Positions 1,657-19,891 of a stretch of 20,452 nt of DNA are shown piece after piece (within the stretch, counting starts at the first letter, position 1; each line of letters opens with the position of its first letter). This DNA comes from a virus. A model generated the notes under the pieces. That model was given only the letters and a program-made list of their open reading frames with translations. It had not been told where the DNA came from and made no database searches. Both the position numbers and the translations under genes were made by a program. The stretch lies in IMG/VR virus record IMGVR_UViG_3300034072_001470, positions 1 to 20,452 of that record; one strand, given 5' to 3'.

Positions 1657-1917
1657 ATGAAGATCATAGACGTCCGGCCGCCTGGCCGGCCGAAGGATTT
1701 GGCCGTCTTCGATATCGAGATCGGCCCGCACCTTCGGCTCTACAATCTCACGCTGCGCAAGTCGCCGGACGGCAGACTTCGGACCCTAGCGCCAAACGCC
1801 GCTGGCAAGCATTCCGCGACATTCCATCCGGACCTTGCCGAGCAGATCACACGCGCCGCCGCAGCGGCAATTGGAGGCCTTGCAGCCAATGACAACATTG
1901 CCCATCAAGCAGCCTGA
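1657..1917 (+). CDS. Small conserved phage protein, SpoVG-like (tentative)
   Basis: An 86-aa protein at the head of the replication module. There are two adjacent ATGs (1654 and 1657). AGGAG at 1647-1651 is 2 nt from the first and 5 nt from the second, so 1657 is preferred. The pattern IIDVRPPGR...LAVFDIEIG...LRLYNLTLRKSPDGRLRTLAPNA...FHPDLAEQI resembles the strand-strand-helix plan of SpoVG-type single-stranded nucleic-acid-binding domains, though the likeness is weak and judged by eye. The 3' end overlaps the start of the primase-helicase by 29 bp, which suggests coupled translation and a role in replication or its control. A similar pattern recurs in the gene at 16234. Confidence 0.75.
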   Translation: MKIIDVRPPGRPKDLAVFDIEIGPHLRLYNLTLRKSPDGRLRTLAPNAAGKHSATFHPDLAEQITRAAAAAIGGLAANDNIAHQAA

Positions 1918-4442: not shown

Positions 4443-5840
4443 ATGACAATCCTGAATAGCCTCACCGGCAACGGTTTTCCGCGCCCGCTCTATGGGCAGC
4501 GGTTTTATAGCAATCCGGCACTTTCCGCATGGATTGCTGGCAAGTCTCTTCCTGCCAAACCCTCCAAACCAGTCGAGCTATCGCCCGAAGCGCTACGCAT
4601 GCCGTGGCTGTCCGACAAGCACCTTGCGCACCTGCTGGACCCGGAAGACGTATCGCAGGGCGGGCGCTATCTCAGCCTCACGGCACGCATGAAGCGGTTC
4701 TTCGCCATCCGGACCAGCATCAACCACCACCCCGTCTATCGGCCAGTGGTGCGCGGCGAGCTTGTGCTTATGGAGAACGACGGCCCGACGGACTTCTGGC
4801 GCGCGTGGACAGCGCTTGTGTGGGCAAACATGCTCCCCAAGGACTCCGACATCTTCGACCGGCCAGCCGAGACGGACAGCCCAAAGAACAAGCACCTCGC
4901 CAAAGCCATGAAGCCGCTGCTTGCCTGGCGCGAAATGTCGAGGCCTATCAGCATCGGCGGCACGAACTGGATGCAGGCTGATAACGACAATTATGAAGAC
5001 CCAGGCGCACGGCCTGCGATTTACCCCGAGCGTCGGCTAAGGCTCACTGCCAAGAAGAGCGCTCTTGAAAAGTACATCGACAAGGCGGGGCCAACCGTCG
5101 AATGGCGACATGCGAAGTTCGAAGGCATCGGTGAAGCCGAGAACCGACCCACCGACATCACACTGCAGACCGTCGTCGACAAGCGCGATGAAGCTGGCCG
5201 CGTTCCCAAGAGCCACCGAACGATTGTTCGCGCCGGCAAGCTGCGTATCGCCAACGGCCAGACCATGCGGGATAACGTCCGCATCGAGGAGGGCACGATT
5301 CTATTTCAGGAAGACCGCTTCGGCGAACTGCTCGGACCTGAGCCTAAGCCGATTGATGCCGAACGCTCGCAGTCCTACTGGCTCAAGCTGATGTCCAACG
5401 AAGGACGCAACGAGCTCGAGAAACTGGACTTTAAAAAGGCCGGCAAAATGCGCCGGAAAGAGATTATCACCGCAGAAGAGCGGCGCGCACTGCTTGCCGG
5501 ACCTTTGCCGCCCGTCACCTACTATAAGCCCGGCATTGCCCATGGGACGCCTGATATCGGTTCTCAGTTTCTCGGCGGCTGGATATCCAACCCGAAGGGC
5601 AAACAGCCCCCGGAACGCTGGCAGGACATTTCGGACGAGATGGCACGCCAAGCGGAGTTTCAGCGCTGGGCTAACGCACTGCCGGAAGATGAGCGGAAGG
5701 CGCTCCACATCGCCACCACGGCCAGCACGTTCGCAGACATTGGCAAGGCATTTGGCAAGAAGGGAAAGAACGCCGAACGTCATGGAATGAAGCTGGCCAA
5801 AGCCGCGAACGACAACCTGAGAAAAATAATGGCGGCATAA
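4443..5840 (+). CDS. Uncharacterised 465-aa phage protein
   Basis: I do not recognise the family. The start is well supported by GAGGGA at 4429-4434, 8 nt before the ATG. The protein has no signal peptide or membrane segment, is rich in charged residues, and carries repeated short lysine/arginine patches (for example KKAGKMRRKEIITAEERRAL near residues 330-350). The last 60 residues (DERKALHIATTASTFADIGKAFGKKGK) look helical and could be a DNA-binding helix-turn-helix, the ADIGKAFG part resembling a recognition-helix arrangement. It lies between the primase-helicase and a terminator, so a replication, recombination or late-regulatory role fits the context. No catalytic motif is obvious. It is full length with no sign of decay. 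Confidence 0.8.
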   Translation: MTILNSLTGNGFPRPLYGQRFYSNPALSAWIAGKSLPAKPSKPVELSPEALRMPWLSDKHLAHLLDPEDVSQGGRYLSLTARMKRFFAIRTSINHHPVYRPVVRGELVLMENDGPTDFWRAWTALVWANMLPKDSDIFDRPAETDSPKNKHLAKAMKPLLAWREMSRPISIGGTNWMQADNDNYEDPGARPAIYPERRLRLTAKKSALEKYIDKAGPTVEWRHAKFEGIGEAENRPTDITLQTVVDKRDEAGRVPKSHRTIVRAGKLRIANGQTMRDNVRIEEGTILFQEDRFGELLGPEPKPIDAERSQSYWLKLMSNEGRNELEKLDFKKAGKMRRKEIITAEERRALLAGPLPPVTYYKPGIAHGTPDIGSQFLGGWISNPKGKQPPERWQDISDEMARQAEFQRWANALPEDERKALHIATTASTFADIGKAFGKKGKNAERHGMKLAKAANDNLRKIMAA

Positions 5841-6179: not shown

Positions 6180-6590
6180 ATGCGCATCCTACCTGAATAT
6201 TGGAGCGAGCCGGCTTTTGACGCGGCCGCTGCAGCCCGAATTGCCGACGTCGAATACGACACGTTCTTCGGATGGCAACGACTAGCCCGAGCCATGGGTT
6301 ATGAATTTGGCACGCAAAGGCGCCGTTACTGGTCCTTCAGGGCTGCAGACCTCTACGCGCTCCTCATCATCGCCAAGCTGTCGAAGCTCGGTCTGCCGAT
6401 CGGCATGCCGCAGATCAAGGCGGTGTTTCATTTTTGCTTTGGTGAAGACGGCGAGCCCCGCGCTCCACCGGGTCCATTCATTCAACTGTCGGCTTGCAAG
6501 CGCGCATTCGTTCAGGTCGATGCCGTCGGCTTGTTCGAAGACGTAATCGCTGGATGCGAGGAGGGAGCTCGAATTGCTCAGTCGAATTAA
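6180..6590 (+). CDS. MerR-like winged-helix protein at the head of the morphogenesis operon
   Basis: A 136-aa protein. Residues about 14-75 (AAAAARIADVEYDTFFGWQR ... RRRYWSFRAADLYALLIIAKLSKLGLP) follow the MerR pattern: a helix-turn-helix, an RRRYW wing and a helix rich in alanine, leucine and isoleucine. The rest has no known motif. The start at 6180 has AGAGG 6 nt upstream. The gene ends 17 bp inside the portal gene and uses the strong AGGAGG near its end to launch it. Position before the portal could mean a late-gene regulator or a packaging accessory; the true small terminase seems to be the gene at 14008. Family assignment is by pattern only. Confidence 0.7.
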   Translation: MRILPEYWSEPAFDAAAAARIADVEYDTFFGWQRLARAMGYEFGTQRRRYWSFRAADLYALLIIAKLSKLGLPIGMPQIKAVFHFCFGEDGEPRAPPGPFIQLSACKRAFVQVDAVGLFEDVIAGCEEGARIAQSN

Positions 6591-7962
6591 AAACTGGCTC
6601 ACTGCATCAACCCGCAGCTATCAGGCCGCGCAGGGCGGCAGGCGTGGGTCCGCATTGAAGACGATGCACCACCCCCTGCAGTCGATCGCCGCCGCACGTG
6701 GCACGCTTGCGGCCCGCGCACGCCACCTTGCCGCCAACAACCCGCTGGCCGCTTCTGGCGTCGAGGCGTGGGTGTCGGCGCTTGTCGGGACCGGCATTAA
6801 GGGACAGGCAAAAGCAACCGGCCCGCTTCGCAACACGTTGAACATCTCGTTCGAGAATTGGACGGACGACGCGGACGCGGACGGCATAACCGACTTTTAT
6901 GGCATGCAGGCTTTGATCGTCCGGCGTGTCGTCATCGACGGCGAGGCCTTGGCCATCTTCGTGCAGGACGGCGACGTTTTGCAAATCCGCGTCATCGAGG
7001 CCGAGCAGCTTGATTCTAGCTATACGGCCAACCTAACGAACGGCAATGTCGTCGTTCAAGGTGTCGAGCATGATGCCAATGGCCGGCGCGTGGCGTTCCA
7101 CATCTTCGATCGACCGGCTGCCATGGACTACGCTGCCACCAGGCAGCGCACGCGATATGCGGCAAGCGAAGTGATGCACATCTTCCGGCGCGATGTTCCT
7201 GGCCAGTGCCGGGGCGTCTCGTGGCTTGCCCCGGTAATCGTTCGCCTTTCCGATCTCGACAGTTGGCGTGACGCCTCCCTAGTCAGGCAGCGCATGGCAG
7301 CGATGCTCGCCGGCTTCATCACCACGACGGACGGCAGCGCTTCGCCCATGGAAGGCGAGCAGTCGGGCAGCAGTGTCGTCGGGGGGCTCGAACCGGGGAC
7401 GCTGCAATATCTCGATCCCGGCCAGGATATTCGATTCAGCGATCCCGCCAAGATCGGTCAGGACGTCATCGACTTCGCCGACATCACCGAGCGAGAAATC
7501 GCCGTTGGCCTTGGCCTTCCTGATTACCTTTTGAGCGGCGACCTCAGCGACGTGAATTACAGCAGTATTCGTGCCGGCATGGTCGAATTCCGCCGCAGAG
7601 TCGAGGCACTTCAGCACTCGCTCCTGGCGTTCCAGTTCCTTCGGCCCGTGTGGCGCCGTTGGGCCACGCTAGAGGTGCTGTCTGGCCGAGTACAGGCACA
7701 AGTCGCCGAAGCCCTTCCGGTAAGCTGGATCACACCGAAGCAACATTGGGTGGATCCTGCAAAGGACGTGCGCGCCGAAGTCGAAGCCGTAGCGGCTGGC
7801 CTAATGTCTCGCCGTGAAGCGGTTGCAGCACGAGGCATCGATATCGAGCAGCTTGATGCCGAGATCGCCGCTGACCAGGCAAGGGCGGCTAGCCTCGGCC
7901 TTACCTTCACGACGATGCCGCCCGCGGCAAACGACAATCAGCCGGCTTCTCAGGCGGCATAA
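6574..7962 (+). CDS. Phage portal protein, lambda family
   Basis: A 462-aa portal, the dodecameric ring at the packaging vertex through which DNA enters and leaves the head. Recognisable features are AARARHLAANNPLAASGVEA near the N-terminus, a typical motif of lambda gpB-type portals, then VVIDGEALAIFVQDG and EREIAVGLGLPDYLLSGDLSDVNYSS, characteristic of this family near residues 305-335. Length is somewhat less than lambda gpB (about 530). The start is TTG at 6574, supported by AGGAGG at 6559-6564 with 9-nt spacing; the first downstream ATG would cut away conserved sequence. It overlaps the preceding gene by 17 bp. Confidence 0.92.
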   Translation: MLSRIKNWLTASTRSYQAAQGGRRGSALKTMHHPLQSIAAARGTLAARARHLAANNPLAASGVEAWVSALVGTGIKGQAKATGPLRNTLNISFENWTDDADADGITDFYGMQALIVRRVVIDGEALAIFVQDGDVLQIRVIEAEQLDSSYTANLTNGNVVVQGVEHDANGRRVAFHIFDRPAAMDYAATRQRTRYAASEVMHIFRRDVPGQCRGVSWLAPVIVRLSDLDSWRDASLVRQRMAAMLAGFITTTDGSASPMEGEQSGSSVVGGLEPGTLQYLDPGQDIRFSDPAKIGQDVIDFADITEREIAVGLGLPDYLLSGDLSDVNYSSIRAGMVEFRRRVEALQHSLLAFQFLRPVWRRWATLEVLSGRVQAQVAEALPVSWITPKQHWVDPAKDVRAEVEAVAAGLMSRREAVAARGIDIEQLDAEIAADQARAASLGLTFTTMPPAANDNQPASQAA

Positions 7963-7976
7963 CCTTAGGTGCATCG

Positions 7977-9713
7977 ATGACACTACCTAACGGCACGCAA
8001 CAGCGCGCCGCGCCTATGCGCGCGTCAACTTGGAATGCGGACGAACTGAGCTTCGACCTTGTTCTCTCTACCGGCGCCGCTGTCGAGCGCGGTGGCTTCA
8101 TTGAGGTTCTGGATCTGGCCGGCGCCACCTGGCCCGACACGATCCCGCTCCTCGACAGCCATCGCCAAGGCTCGCTTGATGACAACATCGGCGATGTCAC
8201 CAACATCCGGCTTGAAGGCTCCGAAATCATCGGCACCGCCAAGCTGTCCAAGCATTCCGAAAAGGCGAAGCGCATTGCAGCCGAGCTTTCGGACGGCCGG
8301 TCCTTCTCTGCCTCGATCGGTTACGACGTGGCCAAGTGGGCGGAAACAAGCACAGGCGGAAAGCGCACGCTAACCGCTAAATCCTTCAAAATTCTCGAGG
8401 TCAGTCTTGTGTCGGTACCTGCCGACGCAGCCGCTGGCATTCGCTCCCATACCCCTGAAAGGCAGACAATGACCCGCGCTGAAATCAACGCAGAAATCCG
8501 CTCTATCGCCAAGGCCACGCAGCTTGATTCCGCATGGATCGACTCGCAGGTCGATGCAGAAGCGACCGTCGACCAGGCACGCGCCGCCGCCATTGAGGCG
8601 ATGAAGACACGCGCCACCACGACGCCAAGCAACATCAAGGTTGGCACTGACCACACCGACCCGGAGGCGATCCGCTCGGCAATGTCCGAAGCGCTCGCGC
8701 ATCGCCTGGCACCGGCCACAGTTAAGCTGGAAGGCCGCGCCACCGAGTTCCGCGGTCATACTGTCCTTGACCTGGTCGGCGACATGGCAGCGGCACGCGG
8801 CGAGCGCGTCAACCATCGCGACCGTGAAGCCCTCCTGCAGCGGGCGGTTGGCGCCCATAGCACGAGCGACTTCCCGCTCATCATGGCCGCTGCCGCAAAC
8901 AAGGCGCTGCTCTCGCAGTACGAAGTTGCCGCGCCCACTTATCGCATGTGGGCGGCTCGCAAGCCCTTCACCGACTTTAAGGCTCATCAGTTCCTCCGCG
9001 TGGGTGACGTTCCGGCATTCAGCGAAATCAACGAAGGTGGCGAGGTCAAGTACGGCACCATCAGCGAAAGCGCTGAGAAGATCACCGCGAAGGAATTCGG
9101 CACGGGCGTTGCTATCGGCCGCAAGGCGCTTATCAACGACGACCTGTCGGCCCTCTCGGACTTCTCGTCTGGCATCGCCATTCGCGCGGCCAACGATGAA
9201 AACCGGATGGCCTATGCGGTCCTCGCTGCCAACGCTGCCCTGTCGGATGGCAACGCGCTATTCTCCTCGGCCCACGGCAACCTTGCCGCATCCGGTTCGG
9301 CGATCGACGCGGCAAGCATCGGCGCTGCTGTTGCTGCCATGCGCGCTCAGAAGTCCCTTGACGGTATGGTGCTGAACCTTCAGCCGGCTTATCTCGTGGT
9401 TGGTCCCGCCTATGAGACAGCGGCCCGCCTCATTCTGGCATCGGTCAACGCAACGAAGACCAGCGACGTCAATGTTTGGGCAAATCTAGCGCAGCTTGTG
9501 GTCGACGCGAACATCACTGACAACTCTTGGTATTTGTTCGCATCGCCAACGGCGGCGCCGGTTGTGGTCTATGGATTCGTCGGCGGATCCGAAGGGCCTA
9601 CCGTGAGGAGTGAGCGGGATTTTGACACTCAGGCGGTCAAAGTTGCCGCCTCACTTGATTGGGCTGTCGGTGCCATCGACTGGCGCGGTGCTTACCGAAA
9701 TGCCGGCGCATAA
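7977..9713 (+). CDS. Prohead protease / major capsid protein fusion
   Basis: A 578-aa fusion. Residues about 1-160 form an HK97-type prohead protease with a histidine in LLDSHRQG (H62) and a serine in RSFSASIGYDV (S113), plus the EVSLVSVPADAAA segment that ends the domain. Residues about 165-270 form a charged, helical, scaffold-like region. Residues about 280-578 look like a major capsid protein (RVGDVPAFSEINEGGEVKYG, GRKALINDDL, YGFVGGSEGPTVRSERDFDT). Single-chain protease-capsid fusions of this kind are known in alphaproteobacterial and Mu-like phages. It starts 14 nt after the portal stop. An internal in-frame ATG at 8469 with its own GAAAGG could make scaffold-capsid without the protease. 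The gene ends TAATG with the next one. Confidence 0.92.
   Translation: MTLPNGTQQRAAPMRASTWNADELSFDLVLSTGAAVERGGFIEVLDLAGATWPDTIPLLDSHRQGSLDDNIGDVTNIRLEGSEIIGTAKLSKHSEKAKRIAAELSDGRSFSASIGYDVAKWAETSTGGKRTLTAKSFKILEVSLVSVPADAAAGIRSHTPERQTMTRAEINAEIRSIAKATQLDSAWIDSQVDAEATVDQARAAAIEAMKTRATTTPSNIKVGTDHTDPEAIRSAMSEALAHRLAPATVKLEGRATEFRGHTVLDLVGDMAAARGERVNHRDREALLQRAVGAHSTSDFPLIMAAAANKALLSQYEVAAPTYRMWAARKPFTDFKAHQFLRVGDVPAFSEINEGGEVKYGTISESAEKITAKEFGTGVAIGRKALINDDLSALSDFSSGIAIRAANDENRMAYAVLAANAALSDGNALFSSAHGNLAASGSAIDAASIGAAVAAMRAQKSLDGMVLNLQPAYLVVGPAYETAARLILASVNATKTSDVNVWANLAQLVVDANITDNSWYLFASPTAAPVVVYGFVGGSEGPTVRSERDFDTQAVKVAASLDWAVGAIDWRGAYRNAGA
8457..8471 (+). promoter_or_regulatory. Internal ribosome-binding site and in-frame start at the protease/capsid junction
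   Basis: GAAAGG (8457-8462), 6-nt spacer, ATG (8469-8471), in frame at codon 165 of the fusion. It falls exactly between the protease domain and the scaffold-like region, so it could produce a 414-aa protein in excess over the full-length chain, comparable in logic to nested phage protease and scaffold genes. Seen in sequence; the use of this start is inferred. Confidence 0.5.
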
Positions 9714-9943
9714 TGGCGACCCTCGCTGAATTGCAAGCAATGCGGGCGGCCCTAGTGGTCGCCCGCTCGTCTGGCACGCTCAAGACAGTCTTCACCTCCG
9801 GCTCTACCCGGCGAGAGGTCGAATACAAATCCGACAGCGAGATGGCGGCGGCAATCGCTGCCATCGACCGCGAGATCAATGCGGCCAGCGGCACCAAGCC
9901 CCGCCGCTTCCTCCCCTCATTCAACGATGGATTCAATCAATGA
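9713..9943 (+). CDS. gpW-like head-tail joining protein
   Basis: A 76-aa protein (MATLAELQAMRAALVVARSS...) of the lambda gpW type: an N-terminal helix, a short beta hairpin (VFTSGSTRREVEYKS) and a second helix (SEMAAAIAAIDREI). gpW plugs the portal after packaging and is the docking surface for the tail. The start ATG at 9713 shares bases with the stop of the capsid gene (TAATG); an earlier in-frame start inside the capsid gene is unlikely. The stop overlaps the next start by 4 bp (ATGA). Confidence 0.85.
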   Translation: MATLAELQAMRAALVVARSSGTLKTVFTSGSTRREVEYKSDSEMAAAIAAIDREINAASGTKPRRFLPSFNDGFNQ

Positions 9944-10257
9944 AAAACTTCATCTCCACAGGCGAAATCCTTGAAGTAACGGCACCCTATGACGTTGCGT
10001 CAGGTGGTGGCGTTCTCGTCGGCTCGATCTTCGGCTTTGCCGTGACCTCTGCAGTGTCCGGCCAGCCGGTTAACATCAAACGCAAGGGCGTTTTCGAGCA
10101 CGCAAAGACAAGTGCTCAGGCCTGGACGCAAGGTGCTGCCCTTTACTGGGACAATACCAATAAGGTTCTGACGACAGCATCCAGCGGCAACACGCTCGTC
10201 GGCGCGGCTGCCCTCCCGGCCGCCAACCCCTCGGCCGTCGGTCGCATTGTGATCTAA
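9940..10257 (+). CDS. DUF2190-family capsid-associated (decoration/cement-like) protein
   Basis: A 105-aa beta-rich protein matching the DUF2190 pattern: an N-terminal GEILEVTAPYDVASGGGVLVGSIFGFA stretch, a middle QAWTQGAALYWDNTNKVLT segment and a glycine/alanine-rich end (LVGAAALPAANPSAVGRIVI). Proteins of this family are found beside capsid genes and are thought to sit on the capsid surface. Starts in an ATGA overlap and ends in a TAATG overlap, fully embedded in the translationally coupled head operon. Confidence 0.85.
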   Translation: MKNFISTGEILEVTAPYDVASGGGVLVGSIFGFAVTSAVSGQPVNIKRKGVFEHAKTSAQAWTQGAALYWDNTNKVLTTASSGNTLVGAAALPAANPSAVGRIVI

Positions 10258-10622
10258 TGGACTGGCGCGCATTAGAGGCCGCAACCGATGCCATAGTGGT
10301 GCGCGCCTTCTCCGAACCGGTTCGGCTGTCGTTTTTAAAGAACGGCAGCCCCGACCCGACGAGGCCAGCCCGCGATATCCAGGCCGTCGTTCATCACCCG
10401 AATGCTGAAGGATCAATCTCCATCGGCAACGGCATGATCACCACGCTATCGGCAAGCGGCTCGGCACTCGTCATTGAGCGGGCCGCATACCCCGGCATCG
10501 TGCTCAAAGCAGGCGACCGCGTCCGCGCTTCGAACGTTACCGGCGCGTTGGTCTGGTACGAAGTCAAATCCGTATCAGACCGCTTCTCGAGCATCCTCGT
10601 GGCCAATCTCAACGAGGCCTGA
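10257..10622 (+). CDS. FII-like head-tail attachment protein
   Basis: A 121-aa protein. Size (lambda FII is 117 aa), position after gpW and DUF2190, and a beta-rich pattern (IQAVVHHP..., LVIERAAYPGIVLKAGDRVRA, WYEVKSVSD) fit the gpFII-like connector that joins the portal/gpW complex to the tail. Assignment rests on position and general pattern rather than on a diagnostic motif. Starts at TAATG with the preceding gene. Confidence 0.7.
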   Translation: MDWRALEAATDAIVVRAFSEPVRLSFLKNGSPDPTRPARDIQAVVHHPNAEGSISIGNGMITTLSASGSALVIERAAYPGIVLKAGDRVRASNVTGALVWYEVKSVSDRFSSILVANLNEA

Positions 10623-10625
10623 CCC

Positions 10626-10781
10626 ATGCAAATCATCTCGAAGATTGCGGCGCACTACGCTGCCACGCTCGGCCGCGTCTACTCGGCCCTGCCTCCCAAA
10701 TCCACCGACACACCCATCACCGCAGCCACCCTGCGCGAAGCCCTCAAGGAGGAGAGCAAATGCACGTCAACTATTCACTGA
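10626..10781 (+). CDS. Small 51-aa protein between adaptor and tail chaperone
   Basis: Short ORF starting 3 nt after the FII-like stop and overlapping the chaperone start by 22 bp. The protein begins MQIISKIAAHYAATLGRVY and has a helical centre (TAATLREALKEES). No family is recognised. It contains the strong AAGGAGGAG that serves the next gene, so its translation may help couple the two. It occupies the place where a tail terminator or tail tube gene would be expected, but it is far too short for either. Confidence 0.5.
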   Translation: MQIISKIAAHYAATLGRVYSALPPKSTDTPITAATLREALKEESKCTSTIH

Positions 10782-11032
10782 AAACCCCGATCGAATTCGG
10801 CGGCAAGACCTACACCGACCTCACGTTTCGCGAGCCCAAGACGGGCGACATGATGGTCTTGGACAAGTTCACGGGCGAAATGTCGAAGATGGTCGCACTC
10901 ATCGCCACCATCGCCGACGTGCCGATCCAGGTCATCAAGGACGCGTCCCTCAAGGACTTCACGGCCATCTCCGAAGCCGTCGCGCCGCTACTGGGAAACG
11001 ACCCGGAATCGACGGGCGCTGGATCGATCTAG
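10760..11032 (+). CDS. Tail assembly chaperone, short form (Phage_TAC_7 / Mu gp41-like)
   Basis: A 90-aa protein. The pattern YSLKTPIEFGGKTYTDLTFREPKTGDMM followed by helical sequence (LIATIADVPIQVIKDASLKDFTAISEAVAPLLG) is that of the tail assembly chaperones of the P2 gpE / Mu gp41 type. These coat the tape measure protein before the tail tube polymerises. Strong AAGGAGGAG at 10746-10754, 5 nt before the ATG. It carries a slippery heptamer near its end (10993-10999) that gives a longer product. Confidence 0.85.
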   Translation: MHVNYSLKTPIEFGGKTYTDLTFREPKTGDMMVLDKFTGEMSKMVALIATIADVPIQVIKDASLKDFTAISEAVAPLLGNDPESTGAGSI

Positions 11033-11166
11033 TCGCCATCGTTGCTGCTGAACTCTCCACCTCCATCAGCGAGGTGGAGGGCTTCCCCCCTGAGAAAACC
11101 ATCGCCTACGCGCAAGCCGCTGTCCGGTGGCTAAACCAGAAAAATGGTGGCCCGAAGAATGGCTAA
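10760..11166 (+). CDS. Tail assembly chaperone, -1 frameshift fusion product
   Basis: Translation slipping by -1 on G GGA AAC (10993-10999) leaves the short form after 80 codons and reads 55 further codons (beginning RPGIDGRWIDLVAIVAAELS) to the TAA at 11164, giving a 135-aa protein. The second part has sensible composition, contains helices, and ends at the start of the tape measure gene, as gpG-T of lambda and E-E' of P2 do. P2 E+E' (142 aa) is similar in size. No independent start with a ribosome-binding site is seen for the second part. Confidence 0.85.
10993..10999 (+). promoter_or_regulatory. Programmed -1 frameshift site GGGAAAC
   Basis: A perfect X XXY YYZ slippery heptamer in the right phase of the chaperone frame (ct G GGA AAC gac). 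A short GC stem (GGCGCT with AGTCGCC, 11014-11037) lies just downstream and a stronger hairpin (CCACCTC/GAGGTGG, about 11059-11079) follows about 60 nt after it; one of these may stimulate slippage. Confidence 0.85.
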
Positions 11167-13336
11167 GACGCAAGACGCAAAACTAATCGTAAGCTTGCTG
11201 GACCGCCTCAGCGGTCCGGCGAAAGCCATCTCCGGCACACTCTCTCGCCTTTACGCCATGCAGGCGCGTAACACCGCCGCACTCGACCAGATGCGGGGCA
11301 GGATGCTCGACGCAATGGGCGCCGGCTATGCCCTCGCTCGCTCCCTGTCGGCACCGATCAATGCCGCTGTTGCATTCGAATCCACCATGGCCGACGTGGC
11401 CAAGGTCGTGGATTTCGAAAGTCCGGCCGCGTTCAAGCAAATGTCCAGCGACATTCGCGAGCTATCCTTGCGCATCCCGATGGCTGCCGACGGCCTCGGC
11501 CAGATTGTTGCGGCTGCCGGCCAGTCAGGCATTGCGAACAACGAACTGCTCAAGTTCACAGAGCTCGCCGCTAAAGTCGGCGTGGCGTGGGACATGTCGG
11601 CAGACCAGACCGGCGAAGCGCTCGCAAAGCTGAAGACGGCCCTCGGTCGCAGCATCGACGACACGGCCAGCCTTGCCGACGCCATCAACCACCTCGGCAA
11701 CAATTCGGCCGCATCGGCTCCGAAGATCCTCGACGTCGTTCGCCGCGTGGCGCCTATGGCCAGCCAATTCGGCATGACAGCCGAAGAAGTCGCGGCGCTT
11801 GGTGCTGCCATGACCGGCGCAGGCTTCGAATCCGAAGTCGCATCTACTTCTATCTTGAATATCGGCCGTGCGCTTACTCGTGGATCCGGTGCAACTGCTC
11901 GTCAGTCCAAGGCTTTCAAGACGCTTGGGCTGCAGTCCAAGGCCGTGGCCAAGTCGATGCAAAACGATGCCATGGGCACGTTGCAGGACGTTCTAGAGCG
12001 CGTTGGCCGTCTTCCTGCCGACATGCGAGCAAGTCTCGTGTCCGACCTATTCGGCGATGAAGCACGTGCCCTCGGCCCGCTCATCAGCAACGGCAAGCTG
12101 CTCGGCGATACGCTCGATCTAATCGGCGACAAGTCTGATTATGCGGGCAGCGCTGCCAAAGAGTTTGAGGTTCGCAGCAAGACCTCTGCCAACAACATGC
12201 AGCTCTTCCGAAACCGCGTGACGGACCTTGCCATCAGCGTGGGCGACGCCCTGTTGCCGGCGCTTAACAAGGTCATGGACGTCCTCGGTCCAACAGTCAC
12301 AAGCATCAGCGATCTCGCGCAGCGCTTCCCAGCGTTGACGGCTGGCATCATCGCGGCAACGTCTGCAGTCATCGCCTTCCGGATCGCCCTCACTGCCTTG
12401 CGCTTCGCCGGGCTCTACGCTTTAGGCGGCATGATCTCCACGGCAATCGGCTTCACGACCTTTGCCGGTGCTGCAACAGCAGTCGGTGCTGCCCTGGCAG
12501 CCATCAGCGCGCCGGTATGGCTTGCCATTGGTGCAGCGGTTGCCGTTGTCGCTGCGGCAGGTGCTTGGCTCTACAAATACTGGGATCGTATCAGCGCGAC
12601 CATGCGTGGCGTTGCGTCAGCCCTGTCGGAAGAGCTCGCACCCGCCTTCGAATTCCTGAAGCCTGTCATCGAACCAGTGGCGGCAGCCTTGCGAGCGATC
12701 GGCGACGCAGGTGCATGGGTTTACGACAAGCTGTCCGGCCTGGGCTCGATGCTCTCCGGTCTCTTCGATCGGGAAATACTCGGGTACAATCATGCGCAGG
12801 CGATCGAGGCCAACGCCAAGAACGTAACGGCCAGAATAGTCCGCGCATTCATTGACGGTCACGCGCAGATCTTCGCTGCCGGTTCGCAGATGGTGCAAGC
12901 GTTGTGGGACGGCATGGTGGCGAAGTTCGACTCCTTCATCGCGTGGGTGAAGACAATCCCGTCGCGCATCCGCTCGGCAATCGGCAACATCGATCTGTCC
13001 GGAATGATCCGCCTTCCGTCCTTCCTTGGCGGTGGTGGTGATGCTCCGAAGGTAGACGGCGCACGCGCTGCAGGCGGTCCCGTAGGCGCTGGCAAGACCT
13101 ACTTGGTCGGCGAGCGTGGGCCTGAATTGTTCAGCCCGTCAAATGCAGGTGTCATCACTCCGAACCATGCGCTCGGCTCGTCTGCTGCCAATAGCAACGT
13201 GCCGCCGGTCGTGGTCACAAACCACTTCCACATCTCAGGTGCGGGTAATGCCGAATCGGTGGCGCAAGCCGTCGTTGATCGTCAGGCCGGCGCAACAAAA
13301 GCAGCCGTCGAGGCCGCTTACATGGATGCAGCATAA
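11159..13336 (+). CDS. Phage tail tape measure protein (TP901 family)
   Basis: A 725-aa protein that sets tail length and is ejected with the DNA. The N-terminal third has the TP901 tape-measure core (FESTMADVAKVVDF, ADGLGQIVAAAGQSGIA, MTAEEVAALGAAMTGAGF, FGDEARALGPL). Hydrophobic helices with many Ala/Ile/Val residues fill about residues 385-465. The C-terminus has the usual GGPVGAGKTYLVGERGPELF motif near residue 650. I prefer ATG 11159 (MAKTQDAKL), which overlaps the frameshift product by 8 bp; ATG 11144 is in the same frame and would add five residues. It is complete but on the short side for the family. No tail tube gene precedes it. Confidence 0.93.
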   Translation: MAKTQDAKLIVSLLDRLSGPAKAISGTLSRLYAMQARNTAALDQMRGRMLDAMGAGYALARSLSAPINAAVAFESTMADVAKVVDFESPAAFKQMSSDIRELSLRIPMAADGLGQIVAAAGQSGIANNELLKFTELAAKVGVAWDMSADQTGEALAKLKTALGRSIDDTASLADAINHLGNNSAASAPKILDVVRRVAPMASQFGMTAEEVAALGAAMTGAGFESEVASTSILNIGRALTRGSGATARQSKAFKTLGLQSKAVAKSMQNDAMGTLQDVLERVGRLPADMRASLVSDLFGDEARALGPLISNGKLLGDTLDLIGDKSDYAGSAAKEFEVRSKTSANNMQLFRNRVTDLAISVGDALLPALNKVMDVLGPTVTSISDLAQRFPALTAGIIAATSAVIAFRIALTALRFAGLYALGGMISTAIGFTTFAGAATAVGAALAAISAPVWLAIGAAVAVVAAAGAWLYKYWDRISATMRGVASALSEELAPAFEFLKPVIEPVAAALRAIGDAGAWVYDKLSGLGSMLSGLFDREILGYNHAQAIEANAKNVTARIVRAFIDGHAQIFAAGSQMVQALWDGMVAKFDSFIAWVKTIPSRIRSAIGNIDLSGMIRLPSFLGGGGDAPKVDGARAAGGPVGAGKTYLVGERGPELFSPSNAGVITPNHALGSSAANSNVPPVVVTNHFHISGAGNAESVAQAVVDRQAGATKAAVEAAYMDAA

Positions 13337-13896
13337 TGACAATGACAGCCAAATGGTCCGACAAGACCATCCTCAAGTTCGGCCGGCAAATTGACCGGCT
13401 GAACCGCGAATTCCCAAAGGTTTTACCTCAAGAAATCAACAAGGTAGGCGAGCGGGCCAAGACCTTGGTCATTCGCACGCTCACCAAACAGACCGGCTTG
13501 GATAAGGCCGTAATCGTCCGCGCTATCGGGAATCCGAGCAAGGCACGGCCGGGCAAACTCTCCTACGATATGAAGACGAGAGGCGGTCAGATCCGCCTCA
13601 AGTACTTCAATCCGAAGGAGGCTGATGGTGGCGTCGTGGCCAAGCCATTCGGAAAGAAGACCTACTATCCTGGCGCGTTCCTTATGGGCGGAGCAATGGG
13701 CAATCGTAAGGTTGTGGCTAAGTTCGATGGTCATGCCATGGTCAGGACCAAGGGCAGATTCTACACGTTCGCGCGATCAGGGGTTGTGATCCCCACCGAG
13801 ATGACCAGCGGTGCAACGCAAGCAGCCTTCGACAAACTGGCCGGACCACTGCTTGAGCAGCGCGTGCAAAAGGTCATCGCTAAACTATTGAAATAG
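13336..13896 (+). CDS. gpZ-like minor tail protein
   Basis: A 186-aa protein resembling lambda minor tail protein Z (192 aa): a basic N-terminal half (EINKVGERAKTLVIRTLTKQTGL, RAIGNPSKARPG), a YPGAFLMGG segment matching the gpZ PGAF motif, a VVIPTEM motif and a C-terminal helix. gpZ is needed for correct completion of the head-tail joining end of the tail. In lambda it lies before the tape measure; here it lies after it. Starts in a TAATG overlap with the tape measure gene; a second ATG (13342) is possible. Confidence 0.75.
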   Translation: MTMTAKWSDKTILKFGRQIDRLNREFPKVLPQEINKVGERAKTLVIRTLTKQTGLDKAVIVRAIGNPSKARPGKLSYDMKTRGGQIRLKYFNPKEADGGVVAKPFGKKTYYPGAFLMGGAMGNRKVVAKFDGHAMVRTKGRFYTFARSGVVIPTEMTSGATQAAFDKLAGPLLEQRVQKVIAKLLK

Positions 13897-14007
13897 CGCA
13901 ACAAAGCAGCGAGGGCAAAAGGTACTCCTAGCCCTTGACGGTAGGCGGGTCGTCGCGATCCCGAGATCTGCCAGCCCGCCGCTTCACCTAAGGGGGTTCC
14001 GCCACCA
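13897..14007 (+). other. Intergenic gap before terminase, candidate cos region
   Basis: This is the only sizeable gap inside the morphogenesis operon (111 bp). It holds a GGCGGG (13946-13951) with GCCCGCC (13974-13980) inverted repeat and the small-terminase ribosome-binding site AAGGGGG (13991-13997). Lambda-type terminases cut at a cos site that usually lies just upstream of the small-subunit gene, so cos may be here. No cos consensus can be named. Confidence 0.25.
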
Positions 14008-14529
14008 ATGAGCGAAAATGACGTCAGCGCCAAGGCGCTCGGCGAATGGCTCGACGTGTCCGACAGGACCATCAGAGAGCTCGCCGAACGGGGCATCGCA
14101 GTCCGCACCGGACGCGGACGCTATGACCTCAAGCAGTCCGTAATCAACCACACGCGCCACCTTAGAGAGGTGTCAGCCGGCCGTGGCGGGGAGAACCAAA
14201 TCCTCGACCTCACCGCCGAGCGGGCACGCGAATCCAAAGAGCGAGCCGACAACCTGGCGCTCAAGAATGAGCAGCTTAGGGGCGAACTCCTCCACGTCGA
14301 TGACGTCGTGCGCAATTGGCAGGACATCCTTCGGCGAGTGAGCAGCAGCCTCTTGTCCGTGCCCGAACGGGTAGCGGCCCGACGCTCCGTCGACGCGGAC
14401 ATTGTCCAAGCGTTCGATCGCGAAATCAGAGACACATTGAATGACCTTGCGGACGATGAAGACGGCTCGCCGGCTCGCCTTGAGCAGCCTGCGCCCGCCG
14501 ATGAAGCTACGTCTGAGCGAGTGGGCTGA
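14008..14529 (+). CDS. Terminase small subunit, Nu1-like
   Basis: A 173-aa protein. Residues 6-50 form the winged helix-turn-helix of Nu1-type subunits (AKALGEWLDVSDRTIRELAE, then GIAVRTGRGRYDLKQSVINH), followed by a long helical region (LTAERARESKERADNLALKN) and an oligomerisation segment. It recognises the packaging site (cos) and recruits the large subunit. AAGGGGG about 10 nt upstream supports the start. Its 3' part overlaps the large subunit gene by 89 bp. The gene uses several AGA and AGG arginine codons, which the element's own tRNA-Arg(UCU) would read. Confidence 0.85.
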   Translation: MSENDVSAKALGEWLDVSDRTIRELAERGIAVRTGRGRYDLKQSVINHTRHLREVSAGRGGENQILDLTAERARESKERADNLALKNEQLRGELLHVDDVVRNWQDILRRVSSSLLSVPERVAARRSVDADIVQAFDREIRDTLNDLADDEDGSPARLEQPAPADEATSERVG

Positions 14530-16222
14530 AAAGGAACTGCGGCTGCCGGAGGGCGGGGCGGTGCCCGGCCCGCTGAAGCTCTACGCCTATCAACGAGGCA
14601 TCGCTGATGCCATTACAGATCCCGCCTTCGAAAAGGTCTCGGTGCTCAAGAGTGCCCGCATAGGCTATACTATGCTGCTCACTGCAGCCGTGGCCAATTT
14701 CGTGGTCAACGATCCTTCGAACATTCTGTCGGTATTCCCGACGGACGAGGCGGCAAGCCGCTTTGTGGTGTCGGACCTTGAGCCGACTTTTGCTGCTTCA
14801 CCAAAGCTGCGACACGCGTTCGAAGCGGATCGGAGCCGCAAGAGCCGCAATCGCATCATGGCCAAGCGCTTCCCCGGTGGGGAACTGCGCGCCGTGTCGG
14901 CCATCCCGCGCAACCTGAATGCCCATACGAGCCGCGTCGTTATCCTCGACGAGGTAGACCGTATGGAGCAAACGGTCGAAGGCTCGCCGATCGCCTTGGC
15001 CGAAAAGCGCACTCTCAGCTTCCGGAACCGGAAGATCCTTGTCGGCTCGACACCCCGTTTCACCGAAACCAGCTTTGTTATTGCGGCCTACAACAAGTCC
15101 GACCAACGCATCTACGAGGTGCCGTGTCCGGCATGCGGAGAGCACTGCGAAATCCAGTGGAAGGATATCAAGTGGCCTCCAGGCGAACCGGCTAAGGCCT
15201 TCTGGTGCGCGCCGTGCTGCGGCGCGGTTGTCGAGGAATCGGACAAACTGGCACTGGTCGAGAAAGGCCGTTGGCGAGCCACCAAGCCTGAAGTCAAAGG
15301 GCACGCCGGGTTTAAGGTGTCTTCGCTGATCAGCCCATTGCCGCAAGCGACATGGGGCAAGATTGCAAGCGAGTTCGTCGACTGCGGCAAGGATCCGACA
15401 CTACTGCAGGCGTTCTTCAATACCCTCATCGGCGAGGGCTGGGACGCGCTTGGTGGTGAAGGTCTGGACGAGACGGTCCTATTCAATGGCCGCGAGCCGT
15501 TCGGACTGGATGCCATTCCGGAAGCCGTCCTGTCTTTGGTTTGTGGCGTCGACGTCCAGCATGACCGCCTTGAGGCCACCATCATCGGACATGACCGGCA
15601 AGGCGTTGCCTACGTTCTATCGCATCAGATCCTCTATGGCCGATGGGACGACAGCGCCACGTGGGCCGACCTCGATGACCTGCTCAAGACCCGCTGGCCT
15701 CATCCTCTTGGTGGCCAGATCGGCATCGATGCTGCATGCGTCGACAGTTCCGACGGCGTCACCATGGACCGCGTTTATGACTTCTGCTTTCCGCGGAGCC
15801 GTCGCCGTATCATGGCCGTGAAAGGCCGGGGCGGAAACGTGCCGTGGATCGTGGCCAGCCGGACCAAGCGCAACGCCTCGCTCTGGATTGTCGGTGTGGA
15901 CGGGATCAAGCGTGCGCTCTTCGATCGGCTGCAGGCCGGCGGATTCTTCCGCTTCTCTGAAGACCTAGACCTCGAGTTTTTCGAGCAGCTGAACGGCGAA
16001 CGTCTCACCGAAAAGCGGAAAGCCGGCGTCAAGGTGCTGCAGTTCGTGCCGGTGCCTGGCAGGCGCCACGAGGTTCTCGACTGCGTTGTCTACGCGCTTG
16101 CCGCCCACAAATCACTGAACATCGATCCAGATCGCCGTGAAAGCGAACTGCGCGTCGAACATCAGGCGCCGGCTAGGCCGCGCGTCATCAAAAGCGAATG
16201 GGCCACGGCTCACCGAAACTAA
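14441..16222 (+). CDS. Terminase large subunit, lambda gpA family
   Basis: A 593-aa packaging motor with ATPase and nuclease domains. Visible are the N-terminal LRLSEWAEKELRLPEGGAVPG, the lambda-type variant Walker A LKSARIGYTMLL (about 69-80), Walker B VVILDEVD (about 146-153), the coupling motif VGSTP (about 181-185), a zinc-binding-like CPAC...CAPCC pair (about 219-250), and nuclease acidic motifs CGVDVQHD, GIDAACVDS and HEVLDCVVYALAA. The start is uncertain: ATG 14441 or 14456 retain the ARRLALSSLRPP lead usual in this family. At the end of the structural operon, rather than its start, the terminase genes are in an unusual place. The zinc site and all motor motifs are intact. Confidence 0.92.
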   Translation: MTLRTMKTARRLALSSLRPPMKLRLSEWAEKELRLPEGGAVPGPLKLYAYQRGIADAITDPAFEKVSVLKSARIGYTMLLTAAVANFVVNDPSNILSVFPTDEAASRFVVSDLEPTFAASPKLRHAFEADRSRKSRNRIMAKRFPGGELRAVSAIPRNLNAHTSRVVILDEVDRMEQTVEGSPIALAEKRTLSFRNRKILVGSTPRFTETSFVIAAYNKSDQRIYEVPCPACGEHCEIQWKDIKWPPGEPAKAFWCAPCCGAVVEESDKLALVEKGRWRATKPEVKGHAGFKVSSLISPLPQATWGKIASEFVDCGKDPTLLQAFFNTLIGEGWDALGGEGLDETVLFNGREPFGLDAIPEAVLSLVCGVDVQHDRLEATIIGHDRQGVAYVLSHQILYGRWDDSATWADLDDLLKTRWPHPLGGQIGIDAACVDSSDGVTMDRVYDFCFPRSRRRIMAVKGRGGNVPWIVASRTKRNASLWIVGVDGIKRALFDRLQAGGFFRFSEDLDLEFFEQLNGERLTEKRKAGVKVLQFVPVPGRRHEVLDCVVYALAAHKSLNIDPDRRESELRVEHQAPARPRVIKSEWATAHRN

Positions 16223-16233
16223 AGGAGCATGCA

Positions 16234-16581
16234 ATGTCTGAATTCAAAGTCGTAGGTATGAGGATCATGAACGGCGCGATGCGTTCCGGCGGCACTCGCA
16301 TTCTCGCTCAGTTCGATTGTGAGTTTCGCGGTCTGCGGATTAACGGCTGCCAGATCCTAGAGCGGGAAGCTGGTGATGTCGTCGTTACCCCGCCATTGAT
16401 CAGGAGCGGAAACAGCCGATTCCGCGCCATCAAGTTCCCCGATGCGCGCCTTATGGGCCAGTTCTTCGACGCCGCGATGGATGAATACCGGACGATCAAG
16501 GATGCCGAGCCAGCCGACGCAGGCCTTCGGCGCGTTCTTGGAGAGGCGGAGCGGGATAGCTTGAATATTGCGGGGATCTAA
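16234..16581 (+). CDS. Small phage protein with SpoVG-like pattern
   Basis: A 115-aa protein starting at ATG 16234 with AAGGAG (16222-16227), 6 nt away; an earlier in-frame ATG (16198) lies in the terminase gene. The pattern FKVVGMRIMNG...ILAQFDCEFRGLRINGCQILER...VVVTPPLI...IKFPDARLMGQFFDAAMDEY resembles SpoVG-type nucleic-acid-binding proteins more closely than the gene at 1657 does. It closes the morphogenesis operon. The stop codon sits inside the terminator loop. Similarity is judged by eye and could be to another small beta-strand family. Confidence 0.7.
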   Translation: MSEFKVVGMRIMNGAMRSGGTRILAQFDCEFRGLRINGCQILEREAGDVVVTPPLIRSGNSRFRAIKFPDARLMGQFFDAAMDEYRTIKDAEPADAGLRRVLGEAERDSLNIAGI

Positions 16582-16981: not shown

Positions 16982-17058
16982 GGTCTCGTAGCTCAACAGG
17001 ATAGAGCGGCCGACTTCTAATCGGCAGGTTGAAGTTTCGAGTACTTCCGAGACCACCA
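16982..17058 (+). tRNA. tRNA-Arg (anticodon TCT), element-borne
   Basis: A full cloverleaf of 77 nt including an encoded CCA end: acceptor GGTCTCG/CGAGACC, D-arm GCTC/GAGC, anticodon stem GCCGA/TCGGC with loop CTTCTAA, and T-arm GAAGT/ACTTC with the TTCGAGT loop. The anticodon reads AGA and AGG, which are rare arginine codons in GC-rich alphaproteobacteria and occur in the element's own genes (several in the small terminase). It is inside the element, away from both att sites. Confidence 0.95.
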
Positions 17059-17117: not shown

Positions 17118-17157
17118 GCCGCGCTCGGCCTTAGCTTTGAGCGCGGCATCATTTTTC
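17118..17157 (+). terminator. Terminator after the tRNA-Arg gene
   Basis: Stem GCCGCGCTC (17118-17126) / GAGCGCGGC (17139-17147) followed by ATCATTTTTC on the plus strand. It would stop rightward transcription before it meets the leftward gene at 17149-17706. Confidence 0.75.
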
Positions 17158-17706
17158 GGCAACAAGCGTGCCGATATGCCCCAGCGACGACTGGCTGAAC
17201 TTGCTGATGAATTCCAGATCGCCGCCAGTGCGCCGCTTCTGTTGTTCGTATCCCACCGCATAGCGGTAGGTGTGGTTCTTGCCTTTCGTCCTGATTTCAA
17301 TCTTGGCCGAAGGATTGGGGCCGTAGAGGAAGACATCGACAAAACCGTCTTCATCGCTGCCAGCTTTCCAAGCCTCAGGACTTGCCGCAAGCACTTCCAT
17401 CAGTGCCGCTATGGCATCGCCGAACGACGCACCTCTCTGCTCGTCGGTGAAGTCTATGGGGTAGTCAGCGGGCAGGTCTTTGTAGCTGGAGACGACCTTA
17501 GCGCTGTCCTTCACGTTCCGGCTCGCTGCGACCGCAATCAGCAAGTTCGCTGCATCTTCGAACGTAACGGCTGAAGTACCCCTGCCCCGCACGCCGAGGC
17601 TACGCAAGCCGGCAACCATGAGGTTGCGATCGTGGAGGATGACGGTCCCCTCCGGGACGCCAGTCACCTCGGCTATTTTCGAGACAAGTTGTTTTGGTGT
17701 GGCCAT
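17149..17706 (-). CDS. Candidate phage regulator with HTH-like N-terminus
   Basis: A 185-aa protein and the only leftward gene in the element. The start is firm: AAGGGAG 6 nt before the ATG. The first 60 residues (MATPKQLVSKIAEVTGVPEG, then TVILHDRNLMVAGLRSLG) look like a DNA-binding helix-turn-helix followed by an AAA-rich helix; the C-terminal half (GFVDVFLYGPNPSAKIEIRTKG) is beta-rich, without the serine-lysine pair of LexA-type self-cleaving repressors. Its orientation against all other element genes, and the operator-rich divergent gap next to it, are what a lysogeny repressor would show. I cannot name a family, so the regulator role is inferred from context. Confidence 0.7.
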   Translation of the reverse strand: MATPKQLVSKIAEVTGVPEGTVILHDRNLMVAGLRSLGVRGRGTSAVTFEDAANLLIAVAASRNVKDSAKVVSSYKDLPADYPIDFTDEQRGASFGDAIAALMEVLAASPEAWKAGSDEDGFVDVFLYGPNPSAKIEIRTKGKNHTYRYAVGYEQQKRRTGGDLEFISKFSQSSLGHIGTLVAEK

Positions 17707-18169: not shown

Positions 18170-18424
18170 ATGAAAGGTCTATGCACCGCTACACTGACGC
18201 GCTCAACTCGAATGGGTGTAGCTGGCACCTACACCGTCCGCACAGGTGATGGTGAGATATTGCCCGGCAACTTCTCGAAAGACGAGGCAGATCTGATCGT
18301 CGAAGCTCTCAACGGAACCGGAGACGTTGACCGTCTGGAGCAGATGGCCGAGACGAAGGGCAGCATGCTCAAGTATGTGCTTGGAGACCATATCAAACGC
18401 CTGCGCATGCGGTCTGCATACTGA
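18170..18424 (+). CDS. Small hypothetical protein of the early group
   Basis: An 84-aa protein (MKGLCTATLTRSTRMGVAGT...) with a beta-strand-rich first half and a basic helical end (YVLGDHIKRLRMRSAY). AAGGGGAGAAGAGAT precedes the ATG. No family recognised. It overlaps the next gene by one base (TGATG), so both are probably translated together. Confidence 0.7.
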   Translation: MKGLCTATLTRSTRMGVAGTYTVRTGDGEILPGNFSKDEADLIVEALNGTGDVDRLEQMAETKGSMLKYVLGDHIKRLRMRSAY

Positions 18425-18837
18425 TGCTCTCCCCCGCAAACGACAACATCCAGCCGGACGCTCCCGTTCGGCTGGCGGCAATCTTGCCTGTCGCTTTCCC
18501 TCACGGCGGAATGACCGTCAGCGGGCTCCGCAAGGAGGCTGCGCGCGGTCGACTGACCATTATGCGGATAGCGGGCAAAGACTTCACCACGCTGCAGTCC
18601 ATAGAGGAGATGAAATCAAAATGTCGCGTGCCCGCAAACCAGCCCGGCTCTGGCTGCGACCGGCCAGCAAAGACCGAGCCGCCACATGGATCATCCTCGA
18701 CGGCGGCAAACAGCACGGCACTGGCTGCAGCGCATCTGATCGTGAGGGAGCTGAAAGAGCGCTCTCAGACCACATCGCGCGACAGTTCATCGCCAGTCCG
18801 GCGAAGAAAGGGCGAGACGCGTCAGAAGTCAGCGTAG
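18424..18837 (+). CDS. Xis-like DNA-binding protein overlapping the integrase gene
   Basis: A 137-aa protein. Residues about 26-69 (PHGGMTVSGLRKEAARGRLT, MRIAGKDFTTLQSIEEM, CRV) form an excisionase-type winged helix commonly seen right before integrase genes of rhizobial prophages. The second half (PPHGSSSTAANSTALAAAHL, then a basic tail) is Ser/Ala-rich and probably disordered, and recalls the tails of related proteins. It starts in a TGATG overlap and covers the first 217 bp of the integrase in another frame. The likely role is to steer the integrase towards excision. Whether the long tail is functional or just the way to translate into the integrase is open. Confidence 0.7.
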   Translation: MLSPANDNIQPDAPVRLAAILPVAFPHGGMTVSGLRKEAARGRLTIMRIAGKDFTTLQSIEEMKSKCRVPANQPGSGCDRPAKTEPPHGSSSTAANSTALAAAHLIVRELKERSQTTSRDSSSPVRRRKGETRQKSA

Positions 18838-19727
18838 CTGAAGTTCTGGGGCATTACGTCGCCCTCAAGAGCGAGACGGCCACCAGACCGAAGGAGCTTG
18901 CCGCGCGGGCAGAAAACCTGCTCGCCTATTGGGGCGACAAAACCCTCGACGACATAACCAGCGCGACGTGCGCCGACTACGCCAAACGCAGAGGGACACC
19001 AAACGGCGCTAGACGAGAGCTTGAGGACTTGCGGGCCGCATGTCGCCAGGCAATCGCCGACAATGTCACTCGCCAGTCTGTAACGGTCACGCTACCCCCG
19101 AAGGCAAAGGGACGCGTCAAGCATCTGGACAGGTCCACACTGGCCAAGTTGATCTGGGCAGCTTACCGCAAGCGGGGCAAATACCGAGGCGCGCCGAACA
19201 AGAGGAAGCCGACGATTCACATCGCTCGTTTCGCGTTGGCGGCAGTCTACACCGGCAGTCGATCGGCGCGTGTATGGCAGGCGTCATTCGTCAAAGAGGA
19301 AGGCCGGCCATATATCGACTTGGAAGCTGGCGTCTTCTATCGGGCATGGGACGGCGAACGTGTAGCTGCAAGCAAGCGCGCTCCGCCGATCCGCCTGCCC
19401 GGCCGCCTTCTAGCGCATATGCGCCGCTGGCACCGGTTGGGCGCCCGTTACGTCGTCGAGTACAACGGCCAGCCTGCGGATCCGAAGAGGGCATTCCGCA
19501 ACCTTGTCGACGAGGTGCTGGGCGAAGATGCTGAGGGGATCGTCAGGCACACCCTGCGGCATACCGCGGCGACGTGGCTGATGCAGGCGGCAACCGACAA
19601 GTGGGAGGCTTCCGGATATCTCGGCATGACGCTCGAGACACTGGAAAAGACCTACGGCCATCATCACCCTGACCATCAGGCAAACGTTGGCGCTGCATTC
19701 ACATCAGGCAGAGCGGGCCGCAAATGA
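18621..19727 (+). CDS. int: Tyrosine site-specific integrase
   Basis: A 368-aa phage integrase that recombines attP with the tRNA-Pro gene. An N-terminal arm-binding part (MSRARKPARLWLRPASKDRA...) is followed by a core-binding SAM-like domain (about 68-160) and the catalytic domain with R214 (YTGSRSARVWQASF), K252, H310 and R313 (VRHTLRHTAATWLM) and the nucleophile Y345 (LEKTYGHHHPDHQ). The position usually held by the second histidine (nine residues before the tyrosine) is methionine (LGMTLETLEKTY), a variation common in alphaproteobacterial integrases. Start ATG 18621, with GAGGAG at 18604-18609. Arm-type sites begin 4 bp after the stop, and attR lies about 60 bp further. Confidence 0.93.
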   Translation: MSRARKPARLWLRPASKDRAATWIILDGGKQHGTGCSASDREGAERALSDHIARQFIASPAKKGRDASEVSVAEVLGHYVALKSETATRPKELAARAENLLAYWGDKTLDDITSATCADYAKRRGTPNGARRELEDLRAACRQAIADNVTRQSVTVTLPPKAKGRVKHLDRSTLAKLIWAAYRKRGKYRGAPNKRKPTIHIARFALAAVYTGSRSARVWQASFVKEEGRPYIDLEAGVFYRAWDGERVAASKRAPPIRLPGRLLAHMRRWHRLGARYVVEYNGQPADPKRAFRNLVDEVLGEDAEGIVRHTLRHTAATWLMQAATDKWEASGYLGMTLETLEKTYGHHHPDHQANVGAAFTSGRAGRK

Positions 19728-19784: not shown

Positions 19785-19860
19785 AAAAACCCCGCCGAAG
19801 CGGGGTTTTCAAGCTGGTCGGAGTGGAGTGATTCGAACACTCGACCCCCACGTCCCGAAC
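19785..19860 (-). repeat. attR: element-supplied 3' half of tRNA-Pro plus terminator
   Basis: A direct repeat of 1392-1469. The crossover lies in the segment CGACCCCCACGTCCCGAAC, identical on both sides (1451-1469 and 19842-19860). Because the promoter and 5' half of the tRNA continue to the right, this copy is the one brought by the element to keep the tRNA gene whole. Confidence 0.9.
19786..19809 (-). terminator. Terminator of the tRNA-Pro gene
   Basis: Minus-strand stem CCCCGC-TTCG-GCGGGG followed by a T tract, 5 bp after the encoded CCA end of tRNA-Pro. Identical to the left copy at 1393-1417, so the element carries host terminator sequence in its attachment site. Confidence 0.88.
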
Positions 19861-19891
19861 GTGGTGCGCTACCAGGCTGCGCTACACTCCG
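19815..19891 (-). tRNA. tRNA-Pro (anticodon CGG), integration target
   Basis: A 77-nt cloverleaf including an encoded CCA end: acceptor CGGAGTG/CACTCCG, D-arm GCGC/GCGC with AGCCTGGTA loop, anticodon arm CCACG-TTCGGGA-CGTGG (anticodon CGG, codon CCG), T-arm GAGTG-TTCGAAT-CACTC. The gene remains intact after insertion, being rebuilt from host 5' and element 3' parts. Confidence 0.95.

Follow-up and report, generated by a model that had tools for sequence, protein, structure and literature searches.

The 18.4 kb element in the window, as we call the whole 20,452-nucleotide stretch of DNA analysed here (IMG/VR virus record IMGVR_UViG_3300034072_001470), is probably an integrated phage satellite of a Rhizobiales-type bacterium. 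It appears to be a satellite that forms its own capsid and borrows its tail, working in the manner of the cf-PICIs, and its gene content makes this the likely reading, the lifestyle being inferred from genomes only. On a wider scale, we lean cautiously towards the view that widespread alphaproteobacterial satellites own the genes from capsid to ruler (the tail tape measure protein, TMP), swap a neck-chaperone-ruler block and re-size the tail of a contractile helper to a small head, with repeated and independent capture of rulers from different phages.

The element is delimited by two direct repeats of 76 nt that are 93% identical, with a spacing of 18,391 bp and a tRNA-Pro gene as target. Between them are found a primase, a portal, a protease-capsid fusion, gpW, cement and FII proteins, a P2-type tail assembly chaperone (TAC), the TMP, gpZ, both terminase subunits (TerS and TerL) and an integrase (Table 1). 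The genes from 6180 to 13896 form a single operon whose gene ends overlap or nearly touch, followed by TerS, TerL and two small genes. The head, neck, chaperone, ruler and packaging genes that the preliminary description had listed were all present and intact by profile matches, as were the integrase, the att sites and the in-phase slippery site. The description had placed these head, packaging and tail-length genes in a block at 6180-16581; the block does contain them, but its right end, 16234-16581, is an ORF without tail match.

Table 1. Features of the element and their positions in the window.
Feature	Position	Strand	Remarks
attL	1394..1469	.	76-nt direct repeat (93%) of tRNA-Pro 3' region
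86-aa ORF, no assigned function	1657..1917	+	homologue in L001, 37-38%
Primase-helicase (Toprim + AAA_25)	1835..3781	+	start probably 1889; profile match
465-aa ORF, no assigned function	4443..5840	+	phrog_36072
136-aa putative helix-turn-helix protein	6180..6590	+	directly upstream of portal
Portal, lambda gpB family	6574..7962	+	PF05136 5.6e-92
Prohead protease (S78) fused to major capsid	7977..9713	+	PF25209 6e-45; phrog_4523 1.9e-152
Head-tail joining protein gpW/Ad1	9713..9943	+	NF047331 1.7e-15
Capsid cement/decoration protein	9940..10257	+	PF09956 2.4e-28
FII-like neck/stopper protein	10257..10622	+	phrog_25398 3.7e-22
51-aa conserved ORF, 5' of chaperone	10626..10781	+	homologues in four relatives, 53-69% identity
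Tail assembly chaperone (TAC), short form, P2 gpE / Mu gp41 type	10760..11032	+	PF10109 2.5e-16
G GGA AAC -1 frameshift heptamer	10993..10999	+	in phase with chaperone
Chaperone -1 frame extension, 57 aa	10993..11166	+	peptide conserved in L002, L003, L009
Tail tape measure protein (TMP), 725 aa	11159..13336	+	PF10145 3.8e-40; phrog_28 4e-109
gpZ-like tail completion / Neck1 protein	13336..13896	+	phrog_27 1.1e-14
Terminase small subunit TerS (Nu1-like)	14008..14529	+	phrog_57 2.9e-27
Terminase large subunit TerL (gpA)	14441..16222	+	1e-76; start probably 14456
115-aa ORF, no assigned function	16234..16581	+	no tail match by profile search
tRNA-Arg (TCT), carried by element	16982..17058	+	
185-aa ORF, no assigned function	17149..17706	-	homologue beside related integrase in G132_C5
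137-aa ORF, 5' of integrase	18424..18837	+	possibly excisionase/AlpA-like, inspection only; 68% homologue in G132_C5
Tyrosine integrase	18621..19727	+	profile match
attR	19785..19860	.	at tRNA-Pro (CGG) gene 19815-19891

Searches of all called ORFs with Pfam, PHROGs and NCBIfam profiles gave no match to a tube, sheath, baseplate, fibre, holin or endolysin, in agreement with the earlier claim that tube, tail tip, fibre and lysis genes are missing. The absence of the tube is a result of profile searches only, and the 185-aa ORF on the minus strand gave no assignable fold, its structure model being of no use (pLDDT 41). The tube, sheath, baseplate and lysis genes that characterise a complete temperate contractile phage are thus lacking in the window, and it differs from a gene transfer agent, which has a full tail set and neither integrase nor att sites, in carrying integrase and att sites together with an incomplete tail. 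What it does contain is the combination of a satellite TAC and TMP without tube that is typical of a PLE-like chimeric tail. Nevertheless, a PLE uses the capsid of its helper and has no capsid gene, whereas the window has one, and the resemblance is limited to the tail genes.

Satellites that provide their own ruler are already known. Western blots, mass spectrometry and transduction experiments demonstrated that PLE11 places its own TMP and BhuB in tails otherwise made of ICP1 proteins, and deletion of its tmp decreased PLE transfer by 96-99.9% (PMC12987554). PLE11, PLE1 and PLE4 of Vibrio cholerae encode, like the window, their own TAC and TMP, and the PLE ruler is shorter than that of the helper. 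For PLEs, chimeric contractile tails with helper tube, sheath and baseplate have been demonstrated, whereas those of the window are predicted from its genes. PLEs also remodel helper capsids, and PLE11 adds its own baseplate hub, while the window has its own capsid, portal, terminases and neck; genes and hosts differ as well. Until 2026, characterised satellites were thought to use helper tails unaltered, and PLEs are the first shown exception.

By analogy with the proven case of PLE11, a chimeric satellite-helper tail is proposed here. In a cell where a contractile-tailed helper phage multiplies, the satellite would excise and replicate, and its genome would be packaged into its own head. Its chaperone and TMP would recruit the baseplate, tube and sheath of the helper, which may polymerise on the satellite ruler to give a tail of the length that this ruler sets. 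The tail would then be joined to the satellite head through the satellite gpW, FII and gpZ, and the lysis genes of the helper would release the particles.

It is very unlikely that the satellite TMP and chaperone mainly interfere with the assembly of helper tails, satellite particles using unmodified helper tails or none. Inhibition of tail assembly by a satellite is known from Rta of PLE11 (PMC12987554), and Tai systems are described as inhibitors of tail assembly (PMC11364771). However, an inhibitor would need neither the chaperone frameshift nor the neck and completion proteins that accompany the TMP, and the functionally equivalent PLE TMP is a virion component (PMC12987554).

The preferred reading, a satellite that owns its head and borrows its tail, also has to be weighed against the deletion of a prophage. 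The preliminary description had named a clean internal deletion as the alternative. Complete contractile prophages do combine homologous FII, gpZ, chaperone and TMP with tube, sheath and baseplate, and the tail genes of the window probably come from them. In one of them, G372, which belongs to the same bacterial order, the gene order is gpZ-TerS-TerL-portal-capsid-cement-FII-V-W-J-...-sheath-tube-TAC-TMP-U-X-D. This suggests that the neck and ruler genes may derive from such a phage via loss of two blocks, V to tube and U to lysis. A prophage that became defective by cleanly losing two internal blocks, one from tail tube to baseplate and one from tail end to lysis, would accordingly have about the gene set of the window, but this origin is highly improbable for the element itself. 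Its head genes are about 32-37% identical to those of G372 (capsid about 37%) versus 52-87% to those of the nearest satellites, so that the window did not arise by recent deletion from such a prophage. Since its capsid is nearest to that of other satellites (52-87%), the present element is a mosaic whose reduced form is of long standing. Moreover, genes are intact and under purifying selection, frameshift sites are kept, and the reduced set is found in eight att-bounded elements with differing gene orders and TMPs of several origins. Deletion or decay is strongly disfavoured by this recurrent layout, as far as it can be read from genomes.

The recurrence itself was observed at two levels. Two metagenomic contigs (L002 and L003) have the same order as the window, portal-capsid-gpW-cement-FII-51aa-TAC-TMP-gpZ-TerS-TerL, and two other relatives (L008 and L009) keep it across the stretch that each covers. 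The TMP of the metagenomic relatives is 77-91% identical to that of the window. Pairwise dN/dS (NG86) was 0.08-0.09 for portal, 0.12-0.16 for capsid and 0.09-0.13 for TMP. Window-type genes, TMP included, are under purifying selection; the TMP behaves like the portal and frames are intact, and the earlier remark that the element is unlike random decay holds.

At a wider level, a search with a capsid alignment (A2) matched in 53 of the 397 genomes from the order of a Chelatococcus MAG, and, at different cut-offs, in 21 and 38 genomes of two overlapping draws of 297 from the family. A capsid alignment scan of genome contigs gave a single match, and the family of G132 comprised 10 genomes only. 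The gene neighbourhoods of the capsid matches fall into three classes: complete phages, head-only satellites, and satellites that have both head and ruler as the window does. Element boundaries were called from repeats, exact or nearly so, at tRNA genes. Capsid and TMP occur together, with no tube, in seven other att-bounded elements located at seven tRNA genes: G078 (15,301 bp), G312 (16,836), G314 (17,068), G481 (18,388), G595 (15,061), G634_C13 (17,047) and G581c (18,081). A recurring tube-less layout of 17-20 kb had been set as a test of the satellite reading, and these elements of 15.1-18.4 kb, with the same-order metagenomic relatives, provide it. G078 and G595 are near relatives and the remaining ones differ in gene order, with the ruler following either cement or TerL, separating TerS from TerL, or encoded on the other strand. 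That similar elements recur at tRNA genes in many genomes makes a maintained life form, rather than a broken prophage, the probable nature of the element. In two genomes, G581 (L138, L140 and L142) and G634 (L135, L137 and L143), three satellite-type capsid loci were present together.

Head-only satellites of the same bacterial order (G228, G174, G329, G132 etc.) share with the window a homologous protease-capsid fusion, portal, gpW, cement, TerL, alpA/int and tRNA att sites, and their content is completed by primase and TerS; unlike the window, they lack TMP, TAC, gpZ and FII. They measure 16,577 bp in G132, 10,881 in G228, 12,536 in G329 and 12,085 in G174. In one head-only satellite (L050-L051, G132:C2:420-437 kb), two genes of 700 and 865 aa after TerL resemble a putative type III restriction-modification pair. 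The cf-PICIs, with an average size of 14 kb, also have their own capsid and packaging genes and no full tail or lysis genes, and Extended Data Fig. 10b of PMC12987554 depicts some of them with putative tmp genes. They have been reported mainly from Firmicutes and Gammaproteobacteria, whereas the window family is alphaproteobacterial, and the window differs from them in its fused protease-capsid and in having TAC, TMP, gpZ and FII as a set. On the phage side, the TMP of Paracoccus phage vB_PyeM_Pyei1 and related contractile prophages is 41-44% identical to that of the window, and their chaperone and FII are homologous. Unlike the window, Pyei1, a complete 50 kb phage, and these prophages have tube, sheath, baseplate and lysis genes.

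The FII-like protein of the window is homologous and syntenic (43% identity) to a G372 protein encoded between cement and baseplate genes, and it is not a tube because G372 carries this homologue plus a separate tube gene. The nearest folds to its model (pLDDT 64) are neck/stopper proteins of phages Chi, phiXa, Douge and 7-7-1, with no match at E<=0.001, so that the resemblance is supportive at most. The least probable reading is an autonomous mini-phage whose own tail tube and tip have diverged too far to be recognised. Several small ORFs have no family match and the 185-aa model is unusable, but the late operon has no unassigned ORF of tube size. The 185-aa ORF is encoded on the opposite strand close to the integrase, and a TMP-less element contains a homologue of it. 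Lysis genes were not detected, and the FII model resembles a neck protein and not a tube.

Downstream of FII, the 51-aa ORF that had been noticed at the place of a tube gene is real, as its conservation indicates, and no homologue was detected in L001. ORFs of 45 to 107 aa occupy this position in G312, G481 and G568. In-phase frameshift heptamers were found in the chaperone genes of the window, L002 and G312 (GGGAAAC) and of G078 (TTTTTTG). Neither L003 nor L009 showed a classical X XXY YYZ slip site, though both conserve the -1 peptide.

The genes around the ruler tend to occur with it. HMMs built for this analysis detected gpZ and/or FII in 8 of the 11 TMP-bearing lineages and in none of the 41 TMP-less satellites (p=2e-7 on the assumption, not fully valid, that elements are independent), a contrast that detection bias may partly explain, the HMMs being seeded partly from TMP-bearing elements. 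The same HMMs also detect these genes in complete phages outside the seeds. Neither gpZ nor FII was found in the ruler-bearing G312, G314 and G467. In the TMP tree, satellite rulers are scattered among phage rulers with four changes, a number that is the same across the 5-95% bootstrap range; at least two changes are forced by well-supported branches, and several long branches leave exact positions unsure. The phage TMPs nearest to that of the window, with 41-44% identity over most of the length, come from complete phages with sheath, tube, U, X and D. After removal of near-copies, the median ruler length was 716 aa in satellites versus 812 aa in phages (p=0.03, a weak trend in a small and related sample).

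To judge from these genomes, a neck/chaperone/ruler set that is gained and lost largely as a block in an alphaproteobacterial satellite family with its own capsid is a new combination. The principle of a satellite-encoded tail ruler is not new, PLE chimeric tails having been shown in 2026 (PMC12987554). The earlier proposal of an own-ruler satellite as a new variant is thus supported for the alphaproteobacterial capsid-making family and too broad for the ruler idea. Compared with PLE11, the apparent novelty of the window lies in a capsid of its own, in its neck and completion genes, in a P2-type chaperone with predicted frameshift and in the bacterial group. No report of such satellites in Alphaproteobacteria was found in a literature search that covered neither of the two main cf-PICI surveys (Alqurainy 2023, de Sousa 2023). 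The genomes indicate that ruler ownership is a recurrent strategy in a capsid-making lineage unrelated to PLEs, and that the ruler is usually accompanied by neck and completion proteins. This suggests that the choice of tail is fixed at the neck and ruler.

As to possible helpers, a contractile tube gene (PF04985) was found elsewhere in the host genomes of four ruler-bearing elements (G078, G481, G568 and G634) and was not found in G312, G314, G510, G581, G588 and G595. In G078, a contractile prophage resides about 70 kb from the satellite, and its FII is 42% identical to that of the satellite (E=1e-25). The rulers of the two match at the C-terminus only (34%, E=7e-8), and this match may reflect a generic motif. 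In G481 and G568, the resident contractile phages are little like the satellites and gave no FII or ruler match of this kind. A general pairing of satellites with resident helpers was dropped, the signal being partial in G078 and absent from G481 and G568. Hosts like G078, with a satellite and a contractile prophage in one genome, make the matching of a satellite head to a foreign tail testable.

Defence genes were looked for and none were found. Profile searches gave no family match for the 136-aa protein upstream of the portal, which may be a late-operon regulator. Small, probably helix-turn-helix proteins adjoin the portal on its upstream side in the window and in many related satellites. 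The 137-aa ORF preceding the integrase had no match in Pfam; alpA-like genes are present in the relatives L003 and L009 and in many head-only elements. Another type of element, L088 (G132:C5), has a distant capsid and shares with the window its integrase (74%) and the 185-aa protein (44%), from which it follows that the integration cassette is exchanged between element types. Regarding the tRNA-Arg carried by the element, AGA/AGG codons are most abundant in the integrase gene, which has 9 of the 41 present in the element.
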